Assembly: GCA_913058335.1 (NCBI GenBank)
Contig: CAJXPX010000009.1
Span: 62,001-126,000 of the forward strand
DNA length: 64,000 nt
Origin: an uncultured Hyphomonadaceae bacterium
Lineage (GTDB): Bacteria > Pseudomonadota > Alphaproteobacteria > Caulobacterales > Maricaulaceae
Reading direction: 5' to 3'
Positions 12,273 through 16,000 of the stretch are shown piece by piece. Each line of letters starts with the position of its first letter. The stretch's first letter is position 1. The position numbers were made by a program, and so were the translations under genes. The notes below the pieces were generated by a model, which was not told the DNA's origin, did no database searches, and worked only from the letters and a program-made list of their open reading frames with translations.

Positions 12273-12830
12273 CTAGCCCCTTTTTTTTACCCAAGGCATC
12301 ATTCGGACGAACACATTATCTTTATTCACAAAATGATGTTTCATCGCTGCTCCAAAATGAAGCAAAATAAGCCCGATAGTCAGCTTGCCGATATTGCCGT
12401 GCAGAAACTCAAATGTTTCTTCCAGGTCTTTACTCTCGGGAATAAAAGGCAAATCCGGCCAAGCTATGGTCCAGAAAAGCTCGGTCGGAATTGGCAAAGG
12501 CGAAGCGCTCACCATAGCCCAGCCCAGCAACGGCATCCCGATCATAATCACGTAAAACGCGATATGCGTAAACTTAGCCGCTAAGATTTCCCACTTTTCC
12601 ATATCCTTTGGCAAAGCTGGCGGCCTATGGAGCAATCGCCAAACAAGCCGAAAGATCGACAATAAAAGCACCATAATTCCAAAACTTTTATGAAGCTGAT
12701 AAAGGACGAAGCGGTTTGGCGTATTCGGGTTGGTCATCAACAACCCGAAAATAATCAAACCTATAATTAAAACCGCAATCGTCCAGTGAAGAACAATTGC
12801 GATTTTGGAGTAGCGGGTTTGGGCCGCCAT
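12273..12830 (-). CDS. Cytochrome b561
   Basis: A 185-residue membrane di-haem cytochrome of the bacterial b561 family with four transmembrane helices. Candidate haem ligands are His15 in VLHWTIAVLI, the His in YQLHKSFG, the His in KFTHIAFY, and the C-terminal HFGAAMKHHF. Bacterial b561 proteins pass electrons between quinol and periplasmic acceptors, sometimes superoxide. It lies 5 bp behind the yceI gene on the same strand. This YceI-b561 pairing is common and suggests a shared quinone or isoprenoid-linked function. Confidence 0.92.
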   Translation of the reverse strand: MAAQTRYSKIAIVLHWTIAVLIIGLIIFGLLMTNPNTPNRFVLYQLHKSFGIMVLLLSIFRLVWRLLHRPPALPKDMEKWEILAAKFTHIAFYVIMIGMPLLGWAMVSASPLPIPTELFWTIAWPDLPFIPESKDLEETFEFLHGNIGKLTIGLILLHFGAAMKHHFVNKDNVFVRMMPWVKKRG

Positions 12831-12835
12831 GGTTT

Positions 12836-13648
12836 TTATTGCTCGGAATCGGTTTCTGTTTGAGTATCTGTCTCTGCATCAGCTTCCATCTCTGCTGAGC
12901 CTTCTTTCGCAAATTCCATCTCAATCATGATTTTGACGTCATCGCCAACATTTGGCGTATAAGCATCCACACCGAAATCGGATCGTTTAATGTATCCTGA
13001 AGCGGAGATACCGAACATATCTACCCCTGATTGGAAATTCTGACCAACCTTGGTGACTTTCCCTTTAAATGTCACCGGTTTGGTAACGCCTTTAATCGTC
13101 AAATCACCAGTTACGGATCCAGATCCCATGAGGGCCTGTTCCACATCAGTACTGATGAATGTAATTGTTGGAAAAGTTTCAGCTTCAAAGAAATCCGCGC
13201 TTAGTAAATGCTCGTCAAACTTTTCGACGCCGCTATCGATTGAATTAACAGGAATTGTCACATTCAAAGTCGACGCTTCCGGATTTTCATTGTCGAAGAC
13301 AATTGTCGCGTCGGTTTCGCCCCATCGCAGAATAGGATTAGAGTAACCTTGGTGGGAATAGCTAAAGGCAATATAGGCATGACCTTGATCTTCCGTATAG
13401 GTGCCTGATGGGAGTTCGGACAAATCCGCTCCAGGCTTATCCATCTTACCTTTAACGTCAGAAACAACTTTATCTGTCGCATTTTTTGTCTTCTCAGTCG
13501 CGGATGCAACAGCCGTTTTAGATTCTTGGGCCGCCGCCGCAGTTGATTCCTTAACTTGATCAGCAGTCGAATTGGCGTCTGCACATCCGGTAAAAGCTGT
13601 CGCTGCGATTAACGCCGTCGTCGTATAAAAATATTTCATAGTCGTCAT
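12836..13648 (-). CDS. yceI: YceI family lipid-binding lipoprotein
   Basis: A 270-residue exported protein. The signal peptide ends in a lipobox-like FTGC, so it is probably a lipoprotein. About 60 residues of Ala/Lys/Thr/Asp-rich linker follow, then a YceI beta-barrel domain with family features: AYIAFSYSHQGYSNPILRW, then SGVEKFDEHLLSADFFEAETFPTITF and GDLTIKGVTKPVTF. YceI domains bind long isoprenoids such as quinones. It ends in an acidic Glu/Thr-rich tail. It is the first gene of a two-gene operon with cytochrome b561. The long helical linker is unusual for a plain YceI protein. Confidence 0.92.
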   Translation of the reverse strand: MTTMKYFYTTTALIAATAFTGCADANSTADQVKESTAAAAQESKTAVASATEKTKNATDKVVSDVKGKMDKPGADLSELPSGTYTEDQGHAYIAFSYSHQGYSNPILRWGETDATIVFDNENPEASTLNVTIPVNSIDSGVEKFDEHLLSADFFEAETFPTITFISTDVEQALMGSGSVTGDLTIKGVTKPVTFKGKVTKVGQNFQSGVDMFGISASGYIKRSDFGVDAYTPNVGDDVKIMIEMEFAKEGSAEMEADAETDTQTETDSEQ

Positions 13649-13712: not shown

Positions 13713-15035
13713 CTAAAATGATGCCCGTTTAAAGCTCTTCAACTTACCCTCCAATAAACTCCAATCGTCATGCGTTGCAATTGGTTCCCATAATTCTCCG
13801 ATTTCTTCGTAAATAAGGGTAGCCGGCGCTTCTCCTTTCGGGCGCTCTGACACAGTTTCGTATTGGCTATACTCCGCCCGCCAATTGCTAAAGGCCGCGC
13901 CGTAAACTTCTTTTTCCGAGGCGCCTCCCTGCCAATCATGCCAGAAATGCGGCCAGTTTACTTGGCTTTCTTCCAAGAGACGAAAAGTTGAGAGAACGAA
14001 CTCTGTATCCACCTCCAAATTCTTAGGTTGAAGTGCCAAGCGGCGAAAAACATGATCTCGAAGGGCTGTTTGGTAGGCGGGGGCAAAGCTTTCAAGAGAT
14101 TTCAAAAGAGTCTGATCCTCTGTTACCAATGACAAGCTTTGCGCCAATTGCGCTAAATTCCAATACATGGTCTCAGGCTGCCGGGAAAAGGCGTAGAGCC
14201 CATTATGATCGAAATAGGCTGCCGTCATACCTGATTTCAACGTGGGTAGAAAACGGTAGGGACCGTAATCAAAACTTTCTCCCGTAATATTCATATTGTC
14301 GGTGTTCATAACGCCGTGAACAAAGCCGGCGGCCATCCACCCCGCCACCATATCTGCACTGCTTAGGCAAACCTGTTCCAGCAGCTCTGCCGCGTCATTG
14401 GCGTCTGGATAGAAATGTTTAAGGCAGTATTGAACGAGGCTCTCTATCGCCTCTCGGTCGGTGAAAAAGGCATGACGCTGAAACGTGCCAAATCGAATAT
14501 GGCTGTGATTACACCGTACTAAAACCGCAGATCGTGTCGGAGAGGGTTCATCCCCTCGGATAAGGTCTTCGCCTGTTTCTATCAGGCTCAGACTGCGAGA
14601 CGTATTGACCCCTAAATGCTCAAGGTAACGGGTGGCGAGCACTTCGCGAACGCCCCCCAAAAGCGTGAGCCTTCCATCACCGCGGCGGGAATAAGGAGTC
14701 TGGCCGGACCCTTTCGTCCCAAGGTCCAAAAGCCTCCCCTGCGAATCATAAAGTTGCGCATATAAAAAGCCCCGCCCGTCTCCGAGATCGGAATTATAAT
14801 GCCGGAATTGATGGCCATGATACCGCATCGCCAAGGGCTTGTTCAAATTTCCGGGCAAAGGCTCAAATCGTCCGAAATGAGCAATCCAGTCTGCCTCTTT
14901 CTTCGGCAGTCCGAGGCTTGTCGCTAAATCAGTATCTGCGTAGCGCAACAGGGTTTTTGGAAACTCGGCAGGCTCTACGGGGTCGTAAAACTCCCCCCCT
15001 AATTCATAAATCGCTTTGGCAGGTCGATAGGCTAT
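13713..15035 (-). CDS. selO: Protein adenylyltransferase SelO (YdiU family), apparent ATA start
   Basis: Pseudokinase-fold enzyme that transfers AMP to Ser, Thr or Tyr of proteins. The conserved core is present: LDLGTKGSGQTPYSR with the Lys near residue 108, GGVREVLAT, and NTDNMNITGESFDYGPY with Asn247 and Asp256 (numbering from the ATA). The first standard start in frame is a TTG at 14948, but the 29 codons before it encode the family N-terminus (YRPAK, FYDPVEPAEFPKTLLRY). Between the in-frame stop (TGA) and that region the frame has no ATG, GTG or TTG. An ATA at 15033-15035 overlaps the stop of the upstream esterase and has AGGAGA 6 nt before it. The product is 440 residues from there; its C-terminus is shorter than in E. 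coli SelO. Confidence 0.88.
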   Translation of the reverse strand: MAYRPAKAIYELGGEFYDPVEPAEFPKTLLRYADTDLATSLGLPKKEADWIAHFGRFEPLPGNLNKPLAMRYHGHQFRHYNSDLGDGRGFLYAQLYDSQGRLLDLGTKGSGQTPYSRRGDGRLTLLGGVREVLATRYLEHLGVNTSRSLSLIETGEDLIRGDEPSPTRSAVLVRCNHSHIRFGTFQRHAFFTDREAIESLVQYCLKHFYPDANDAAELLEQVCLSSADMVAGWMAAGFVHGVMNTDNMNITGESFDYGPYRFLPTLKSGMTAAYFDHNGLYAFSRQPETMYWNLAQLAQSLSLVTEDQTLLKSLESFAPAYQTALRDHVFRRLALQPKNLEVDTEFVLSTFRLLEESQVNWPHFWHDWQGGASEKEVYGAAFSNWRAEYSQYETVSERPKGEAPATLIYEEIGELWEPIATHDDWSLLEGKLKSFKRASF

Positions 15036-16000
15036 ACGGCTTCTCCTGCCATTTCAGTGATAGATTTTACAGGTTCATCAAGGGCGTAAGTCCGAATAAA
15101 CTCGGCCACATCCAGAGGAATTGTTCGGCCCTTCGGAAAGACGCGGGAAAAGTTCAAAAATCCATGGGGCATTGCCTTCTCATGGTGATATTTAACCTTT
15201 ACCCCGTGACAGGACATATTGTCGGCATACAGCTTACCCTCATCCCGCAGCGGGTCGAGCCCGCAAGTCAGCACATAAGCCGGAGGAAGGCCGCGCAAGT
15301 TTTTCTCGAACAGCGGAGACAACCGTGTCTCGTTCGCATTGGCTCCGGCGACATAATGTTCATTGATGAATTTCAGCGCCATAAATCCGAATTGCAGCCA
15401 ATCCTGCGGGCCGGGCTTAGGCGGCTTAAAGTTCGTCAGTTGCATCAGAGGATATAGCAGAATCTGGGCATGAATATCATTGCGGTATTTCTGCGCGAGA
15501 TAAGCGCTCATGTTTCCGCCCGCACTATCGCCGCCAATCGAAAGGGACGATGGATCAATACCGTAGGCATCTTTCCCCTCGCCGGATAAAGCCCATTTCA
15601 GAACAGTTTCACAATCAATCGGTCCGGCCGGATAGGGATATTCAGGGGCAAGACGGTAATCCACCGATAACACCCGCATATTTGCGCCATTGGCTATCCG
15701 CAGAGTGATCGCTTCATGACTTTCAATAGAACAGGTCACAAACCCGCCGCCGTGGAAATAAATTAGGGTTGGCCCCGCCACGTCGTCTGCGCCAAACGGG
15801 ATATATAGCCGAACAGGAACATCGCAGCTCTCCCCCGGCACGTTAAAATCCAGAACATCCTGCATTTTCGGACCGGGATGGTCGAATTGATTGGTTAACC
15901 GGCGGATATTATTGTGAATAGAATATATCTTATCAGGATCGAATTTTAAGCGTTCGAACCTCTCGCGGAAGTTATCAGCAAATTCTCTGGGACTGAACAT
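15032..16000 (-). CDS. Alpha/beta hydrolase, hormone-sensitive lipase-type esterase
   Basis: A 322-residue carboxylesterase of the HSL (family IV) type: oxyanion-hole motif HGGG in YFHGGGFV, nucleophile motif GDSAGG, acidic residue in CGLDPLRDEG and catalytic His in KAMPHGFLNF. No signal peptide, so cytoplasmic. The likely substrates are short or medium acyl esters. Its stop codon overlaps the proposed selO start, which suggests translational coupling. It is part of a minus-strand run with the acyl-CoA synthetase and DUF924 genes, but a 98-bp gap separates it from DUF924. Confidence 0.93.
   Translation of the reverse strand: MFSPREFADNFRERFERLKFDPDKIYSIHNNIRRLTNQFDHPGPKMQDVLDFNVPGESCDVPVRLYIPFGADDVAGPTLIYFHGGGFVTCSIESHEAITLRIANGANMRVLSVDYRLAPEYPYPAGPIDCETVLKWALSGEGKDAYGIDPSSLSIGGDSAGGNMSAYLAQKYRNDIHAQILLYPLMQLTNFKPPKPGPQDWLQFGFMALKFINEHYVAGANANETRLSPLFEKNLRGLPPAYVLTCGLDPLRDEGKLYADNMSCHGVKVKYHHEKAMPHGFLNFSRVFPKGRTIPLDVAEFIRTYALDEPVKSITEMAGEAV
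15042..15047 (-). promoter_or_regulatory. Shine-Dalgarno AGGAGA deciding the selO start
   Basis: AGGAGA on the minus strand (complement of 15042-15047), inside the last codons of the esterase gene, 6 nt upstream of the ATA at 15033-15035. The spacing is ideal for initiation at that codon and fits no other start codon nearby. Confidence 0.75.

Follow-up and report, generated by a model that had tools for sequence, protein, structure and literature searches.

The window (the whole 64,000-nt stretch of DNA analysed, from an uncultured Hyphomonadaceae bacterium, here genome G000) carries on its minus strand a selO gene that follows an esterase gene and precedes genes for a YceI-like protein and a cytochrome b561. 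The relevant features, listed in the order in which they are read, are as follows:

15032..16000, minus strand: alpha/beta hydrolase (hormone-sensitive-lipase-like esterase) gene upstream of selO; PF07859, E 2.9e-57
15054..15056, minus strand: in-frame TGA closing the selO frame upstream
15042..15047, minus strand: AGGAGA resembling a Shine-Dalgarno sequence, within the esterase gene and 6 nt upstream of the ATA
15033..15035, minus strand: AUA proposed as the selO start, sharing bases with the esterase stop (ATAG)
14946..14948, minus strand: TTG, the first canonical start in the selO frame, which would leave out 29 codons
13713..15035, minus strand: selO frame counted from the ATA, 441 codons, stop included; SelO family
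12836..13648, minus strand: YceI-like gene downstream of selO; match below the model's cut-off
12273..12830, minus strand: cytochrome b561 gene downstream of selO; PF01292, E 3.1e-33

The predicted selO product matches PF02696 (E 2.1e-132) over profile positions 10-458 of 466, and NF000658 with 501.5 bits (cut-off 431); it scores far below the cut-offs of two SelO equivalog models. The sequence of the start region has one match in its own genome, an identical one, at G000:C9:76700-77300.

After the TGA (15056-15054), the selO frame on the window minus strand reads AAT GGC AGG AGA AGC CGT ATA GCC TAT CGA CCT, and contains no ATG, GTG, or TTG before the TTG at 14948. A mechanical list of open reading frames gives the gene as 13713-14948; from the ATA up to that TTG there are 29 codons, the ATA included. 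The esterase gene ends GAA GCC GTA TAG, its TAG (15034-15032) sharing 2 nt with the selO ATA (15035-15033), while a spacer of 6 nt (15041-15036) separates AGGAGA from the ATA. The initial annotation had pointed out both the lack of a canonical start before 14948 and the overlap of the ATA with the esterase TAG 6 nt beyond an AGGAGA; re-reading of the minus strand bears out the former, and the coordinates of the latter are correct.

SelO matches were found in 16 of 18 genomes searched in the genus, and in 121 of 137 searched in the family (16 of the 137 had none); of these 121, 94 loci were retrieved, and the start could be read in 93. The window sequence belongs to a SelO clade of 36 rows (support 100/99 on the tree), in which the start column holds ATA in 14 genomes from five genera: G000, G017, G015, G003, G007, G010, and G001 in genus g1; G018 in g2; G019 in g3; G040 and G036 in g7; and G053, G055, and G056 in g9. 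Among the 22 clade members without ATA, five have ATG and two GTG at this column, and the others, G039 and G035 excepted, start a few codons away with ATG, GTG, or TTG. Outside the clade, ATA occupies the column in none of the 57 readable family loci, and in none of 80 named class-wide loci. Fourteen of 36 at a single column is more than chance would produce. Each of the 14 overlaps an upstream TAA or TAG (seven ATAA, seven ATAG), and this stop closes an upstream frame that is open for 170 to 335 codons. A search with the exact junction motif matched six of 398 genomes of the order, all six being known ATA genomes matched at selO; read backwards, the motif matched two, and it misses several ATA genomes, including that of the window. 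Judging from these comparisons, it is very likely that the ATA start of the window selO is real and conserved.

Two other loci may be recorded here. In G039 (L018), the esterase TGA, which closes a 326-codon frame, overlaps a CTG (as CTGA) that is perhaps the selO start, and there is no canonical start before residue 29. In G035 (L023), the body of selO is intact, with neither a canonical start nor an ATA at the N-terminus.

A strong Shine-Dalgarno (SD) sequence, defined as AGGA, GGAG, or GAGG, is present at 12 of the 14 ATA junctions (the exceptions are G017 and G010) vs. two of 21 other starts. Counting rows as independent, the association has p 8e-6; over phylogenetically independent pairs, three agree, none disagree, and two are equal, which is not significant (median p 0.25). 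GUG and UUG starts are reported to go with stronger or better-kept SD sequences (Belinky et al., PMC5622118), a link described there as not universal among phyla, with the alphaproteobacteria named in this connection. The same study counts a single switch to AUU among 61,358 ancestral AUG starts; AUA is absent from its text.

The order esterase, glutathione transferase (GST), selO, yceI, and cytochrome b561 gene is found in many clade members, and the YceI-like gene stands just after selO in many of them too. Eleven of the 14 ATA genomes have the GST gene directly upstream of selO, in every case with ATAA or ATAG, and in 10 of these 11 its last codons (GGCGCGGAGATGGGACTATAG and near variants) place a GGAG 8 nt before the ATA. 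Three genomes (G000, G017, and G015) have the ATA without an upstream GST gene. In G015, 31 nt separate the esterase stop from the ATA downstream of it, and this intervening sequence ends GGTGCGGAGGCGCGGCCATAG; by eye, the frame overlapping the ATA there looks like the end, or a remnant, of a GST gene. Four relatives with an adjacent GST gene and no ATA have TAATG or TAGTG, three bases longer. On the tree, at least seven changes between ATA and non-ATA are needed, and its deep branches are unresolved, so that the ancestry of ATA is unproven; we prefer, without proof, an ancestral ATA that has been repeatedly lost. The arrangement would then be old, having most likely arisen at a GST/selO junction as an AUAR overlap with the SD sequence within the last GST codons, in an ancestor of several genera, and having been kept when the GST gene was lost.

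One alternative is that SelO is translated from the TTG at 14948, the codons upstream of it being untranslated. It is the first canonical start in the frame, and the best PDB match, the fourth of the solved SelO sequences, does not reach the N-terminus, aligning only from residue 65. The other three of the four distinct solved sequences, by contrast, have alignments beginning at query residue 16, upstream of the TTG (residue 29), so that part of what would be skipped lies within the aligned structures. The 28 codons after the ATA also evolve as coding sequence: between the window and G017 they give dN 0.21 and dS 1.79 (the rest of selO gives dN 0.19 with dS saturated), and pS exceeds pN in seven of seven pairs, with amino-acid sites changing about 2.5 times faster than in the rest of the gene in two of the seven, both involving G003. 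These codons carry residues invariant among eight aligned SelO proteins; the initial annotation had taken them to encode the conserved SelO N-terminus. Across the 14 genomes the first canonical codon after the ATA falls anywhere from residue 11 to residue 126; a TTG at residue 11 in G017 and G055 could serve as a start, but a reading of this kind in G003 (residue 122) and G007 (residue 126) would remove more than 120 residues. For the window gene we regard initiation at the TTG as very improbable. We attach even less weight to a SelO fused to the upstream protein through frameshifting or readthrough, or initiated about 25 codons upstream within the upstream gene. Six of the 14 ATA genomes do have an in-frame canonical start 25-26 codons upstream, inside the neighbouring gene, but in the other eight (the window and seven further genomes) no ATG, GTG, or TTG lies between the in-frame stop and the ATA, and no slippery run is apparent by eye at the window junction.

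The remaining alternatives accept the ATA as read, or question the base itself. The genome is known from one assembly only, which might suggest a sequencing error or a recent ATG to ATA mutation, but thirteen other genomes have the identical codon; among them are G017, whose SelO is 75% identical with synonymous sites saturated, and more distant relatives. With ATA in 14 genomes of the clade, both readings fail, and we give them practically no credence. The initial annotation had put forward a choice between an AUA start with a strong SD sequence and translational coupling, on the one hand, and a recent ATG-to-ATA change, on the other, to be settled by looking for ATG in close relatives. What the column holds in the 36 members is 14 ATA against five ATG and two GTG; the recent change is not supported, whereas the first option draws support, as regards the AUA start and its SD sequence, from ATA with stop overlap in 14 genomes of five genera, 12 of them with a strong SD sequence. 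A possible, if rather unlikely, explanation is a mutational trap, in which an ATGA overlap became ATAA through a swap of the stop from TGA to TAA, and later ATAG; the ATA would be used without having been selected for, a weak start tolerated or locked in, since the upstream stop would be lost if ATAG became ATGG. In keeping with this, all 14 ATA codons overlap a stop, and in the seven ATAG cases the one-step return to ATG removes it; non-ATA starts are found at junctions of another form (without GST, with a spacer, or with the 3-nt longer TAATG or TAGTG); and true ATGA overlaps do exist at selO, both within the clade (a single case, G016, lying one codon upstream of the ATA column and with a different upstream gene) and outside it in L124 and L174, among others. 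Against it, the other seven are ATAA, where one transition would give ATGA with the stop kept, and an ATGA whose TGA closes an upstream gene is absent from the ATA column throughout the clade (G034 and G052 have these letters at the column, but with another stop directly before that TGA). The ATA is also present after GST loss in three genomes. The existence of ATAA junctions without ATGA counterparts at the column leans against pure drift.

The reading we prefer, with a probability of roughly 0.78, is that selO has a conserved AUA start, helped by the SD sequence and the stop overlap, and that its expression is weak, coupled, and probably IF3-dependent. Ribosomes would finish the esterase at the overlapping UAG, with AGGAGA a short way upstream of it and the AUA in or next to the P site; initiator fMet-tRNA would then start on the AUA with two bases paired and the third mismatched. 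Synthesis of SelO would thus be slow, and would depend on the upstream gene being translated and probably also on IF3.

IF3 disfavours a third-base mismatch in the start codon. A third-base preference in initiation is also described in PMC10158994. In 20 family genomes (loci L176-L195), infC itself begins with ATC (14) or ATA (6), the start having been assigned by a conserved ARRP motif and the known habit of infC (PMC5472188), with a TTG further upstream in a few of the frames; since all 20 start in this way, IF3-sensitive starts probably exist in these cells. The comparison of selO with infC made in the initial annotation appears plausible. As to strength, non-canonical starts, including AUA, are reported to give about 10% of AUG in Staphylococcus aureus reporters, with ccpN reaching up to 30% (PMC13009471). 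On these grounds, weak, coupled synthesis of SelO would be expected.

In coupled gene pairs the start overlaps or adjoins the upstream stop on the same strand, and an overlap with a TAA or TAG is found at all 14 ATA codons. Folding of seven junctions paired the SD sequence with early selO codons, the ATA lying in or near a loop in several. A conserved RNA hairpin acting as a coupling switch was rejected, as synonymous shuffles of the selO codons gave a mean z of 0.16 over the 14 ATA junctions; the same test over 15 non-ATA junctions gave a mean z of 0.03. Masking of the SD sequence by structure, one of several ways in which coupling can work, is thus not indicated at the 14 ATA junctions, and the proposed mechanism does not require a hairpin.

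The initiator tRNA of the window genome (L205 3594-3670, G000:C4) has an anticodon stem of AGG/CCT. That of E. coli is GGG/CCC. The AGG/CCT stem was seen in all initiator tRNA matches listed, in 79 of 99 family genomes, whether or not they use ATA; being common to users and non-users, it does not by itself explain the selO ATA. No paper on point concerning this stem was found in the literature searched, judged by title.

We know of no link between selO and translation. One close parallel is infC, with its AUU, AUC, or AUA start: as with selO, an AUH start is kept across species, and in these very genomes infC begins with ATC or ATA. In E. coli its start is given as ATT, and in Streptomyces as ATC (PMC5472188). 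Unlike infC, selO is not expected to be autoregulated, and its start overlaps an upstream stop. AUA starts are reported for infC, ccpN, and citZ in S. aureus (PMC13009471); that of ccpN is kept between S. aureus and Bacillus subtilis and has a strong extended SD sequence, but these are unrelated genes in another phylum, and no stop-start overlap is described for ccpN or citZ in the accessible part of that paper. The sigR gene of Streptomyces, which has a GTC start and is repressed by IF3 (PMC5472188), resembles the proposal made here in that a non-canonical start holds expression low; it differs in having GUC rather than AUA, and in having been demonstrated by experiment, while selO is known from sequence. 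Start codons overlapping an upstream stop are known in termination-reinitiation (PMC2268962), and selO has a like overlap, except that here the overlapping start is AUA. No paper on the start codon of selO was found in the literature searched, judged by titles and abstract openings.

Other genes of the window genome were scanned for similar starts. A first sample (464 kb, 354 called genes) contained nine stop-start junctions whose overlap included ATA. One is selO; the remaining eight were rejected, since each meets a canonical start after 2 to 28 codons and scores low for coding up to it. In a second scan (864 kb, 628 called genes), ranked by coding score before the first canonical start, a glycosyltransferase gene came first (6.74), selO second (5.09), and rarA, which was picked by eye, eighth (2.98); relatives were compared for ranks 1, 2, and 8. 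When 400 kb of G017 and 400 kb of G022 were scanned in the same way (298 genes in each), no case among the top 12 of either genome was convincing by eye; the ATC start of rarA in G017 lies outside the scanned 400 kb. From these three genomes AUH starts look few, the scan being too insensitive to count them. The two additional candidates, both outside the window, are:

G000:C4:66665-67639 (L206 6665-7639), minus strand: family-2 glycosyltransferase; PF00535
G000:C9:6141-7442 (L213), minus strand: rarA; MgsA_C PF12002, E 2.2e-64, with a match to the NCBIfam RarA model below its cut-off

In G000 the glycosyltransferase has ATT before its conserved N-terminus and no ATG, GTG, or TTG before that. 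Among the 12 genus loci read, the same column holds ATT in G016, ATA in G002, and ATC in G014, with no canonical codon since the stop; G006 has ATC there, but an ATG stands 17 codons further upstream. Upstream of the column, G003 and G015 lack a canonical start and have an ATC six codons away, after AGGAG (G003 also has a GTG five codons downstream), and five of the 12 loci have a GTG six codons upstream. For rarA, G000 reads GTC ATT after the stop, and its sister G017 has ATC after GGAGG; all 15 other genus orthologues read have ATG at the same column (G004 gave none). On the sequences compared, AUH starts seem to be rare in this lineage but not unique to selO. A separate observation from the same genome is a transporter frame, also outside the window (L208 2902-3801, plus strand, G000:C5), in which the MFS match starts immediately behind a stop, at profile position 135 of 347; it is perhaps a broken gene.

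A conserved AUH start is of a known kind, while the gene, selO, and the stop-overlap setting are new as far as we know. One consequence is practical: gene finders allowing only ATG, GTG, and TTG would make the window selO 29 codons short, and two of its relatives more than 120 codons short. A broader and doubtful conjecture is that AUH starts in a small set of genes of this lineage (infC, selO, rarA, the family-2 glycosyltransferase, and others) might be a standing device read through one IF3-limited step; if true, SelO-dependent protein modification and recombination repair would rise and fall together with initiation fidelity. More generally, an AUA start in five genera, in a gene unrelated to translation, is a natural case for asking whether selection for low or IF3-tuned expression maintains weak starts or the stop that they overlap merely traps them; relatives with ATG, GTG, and ATA at one column make this choice between selection and trap testable.
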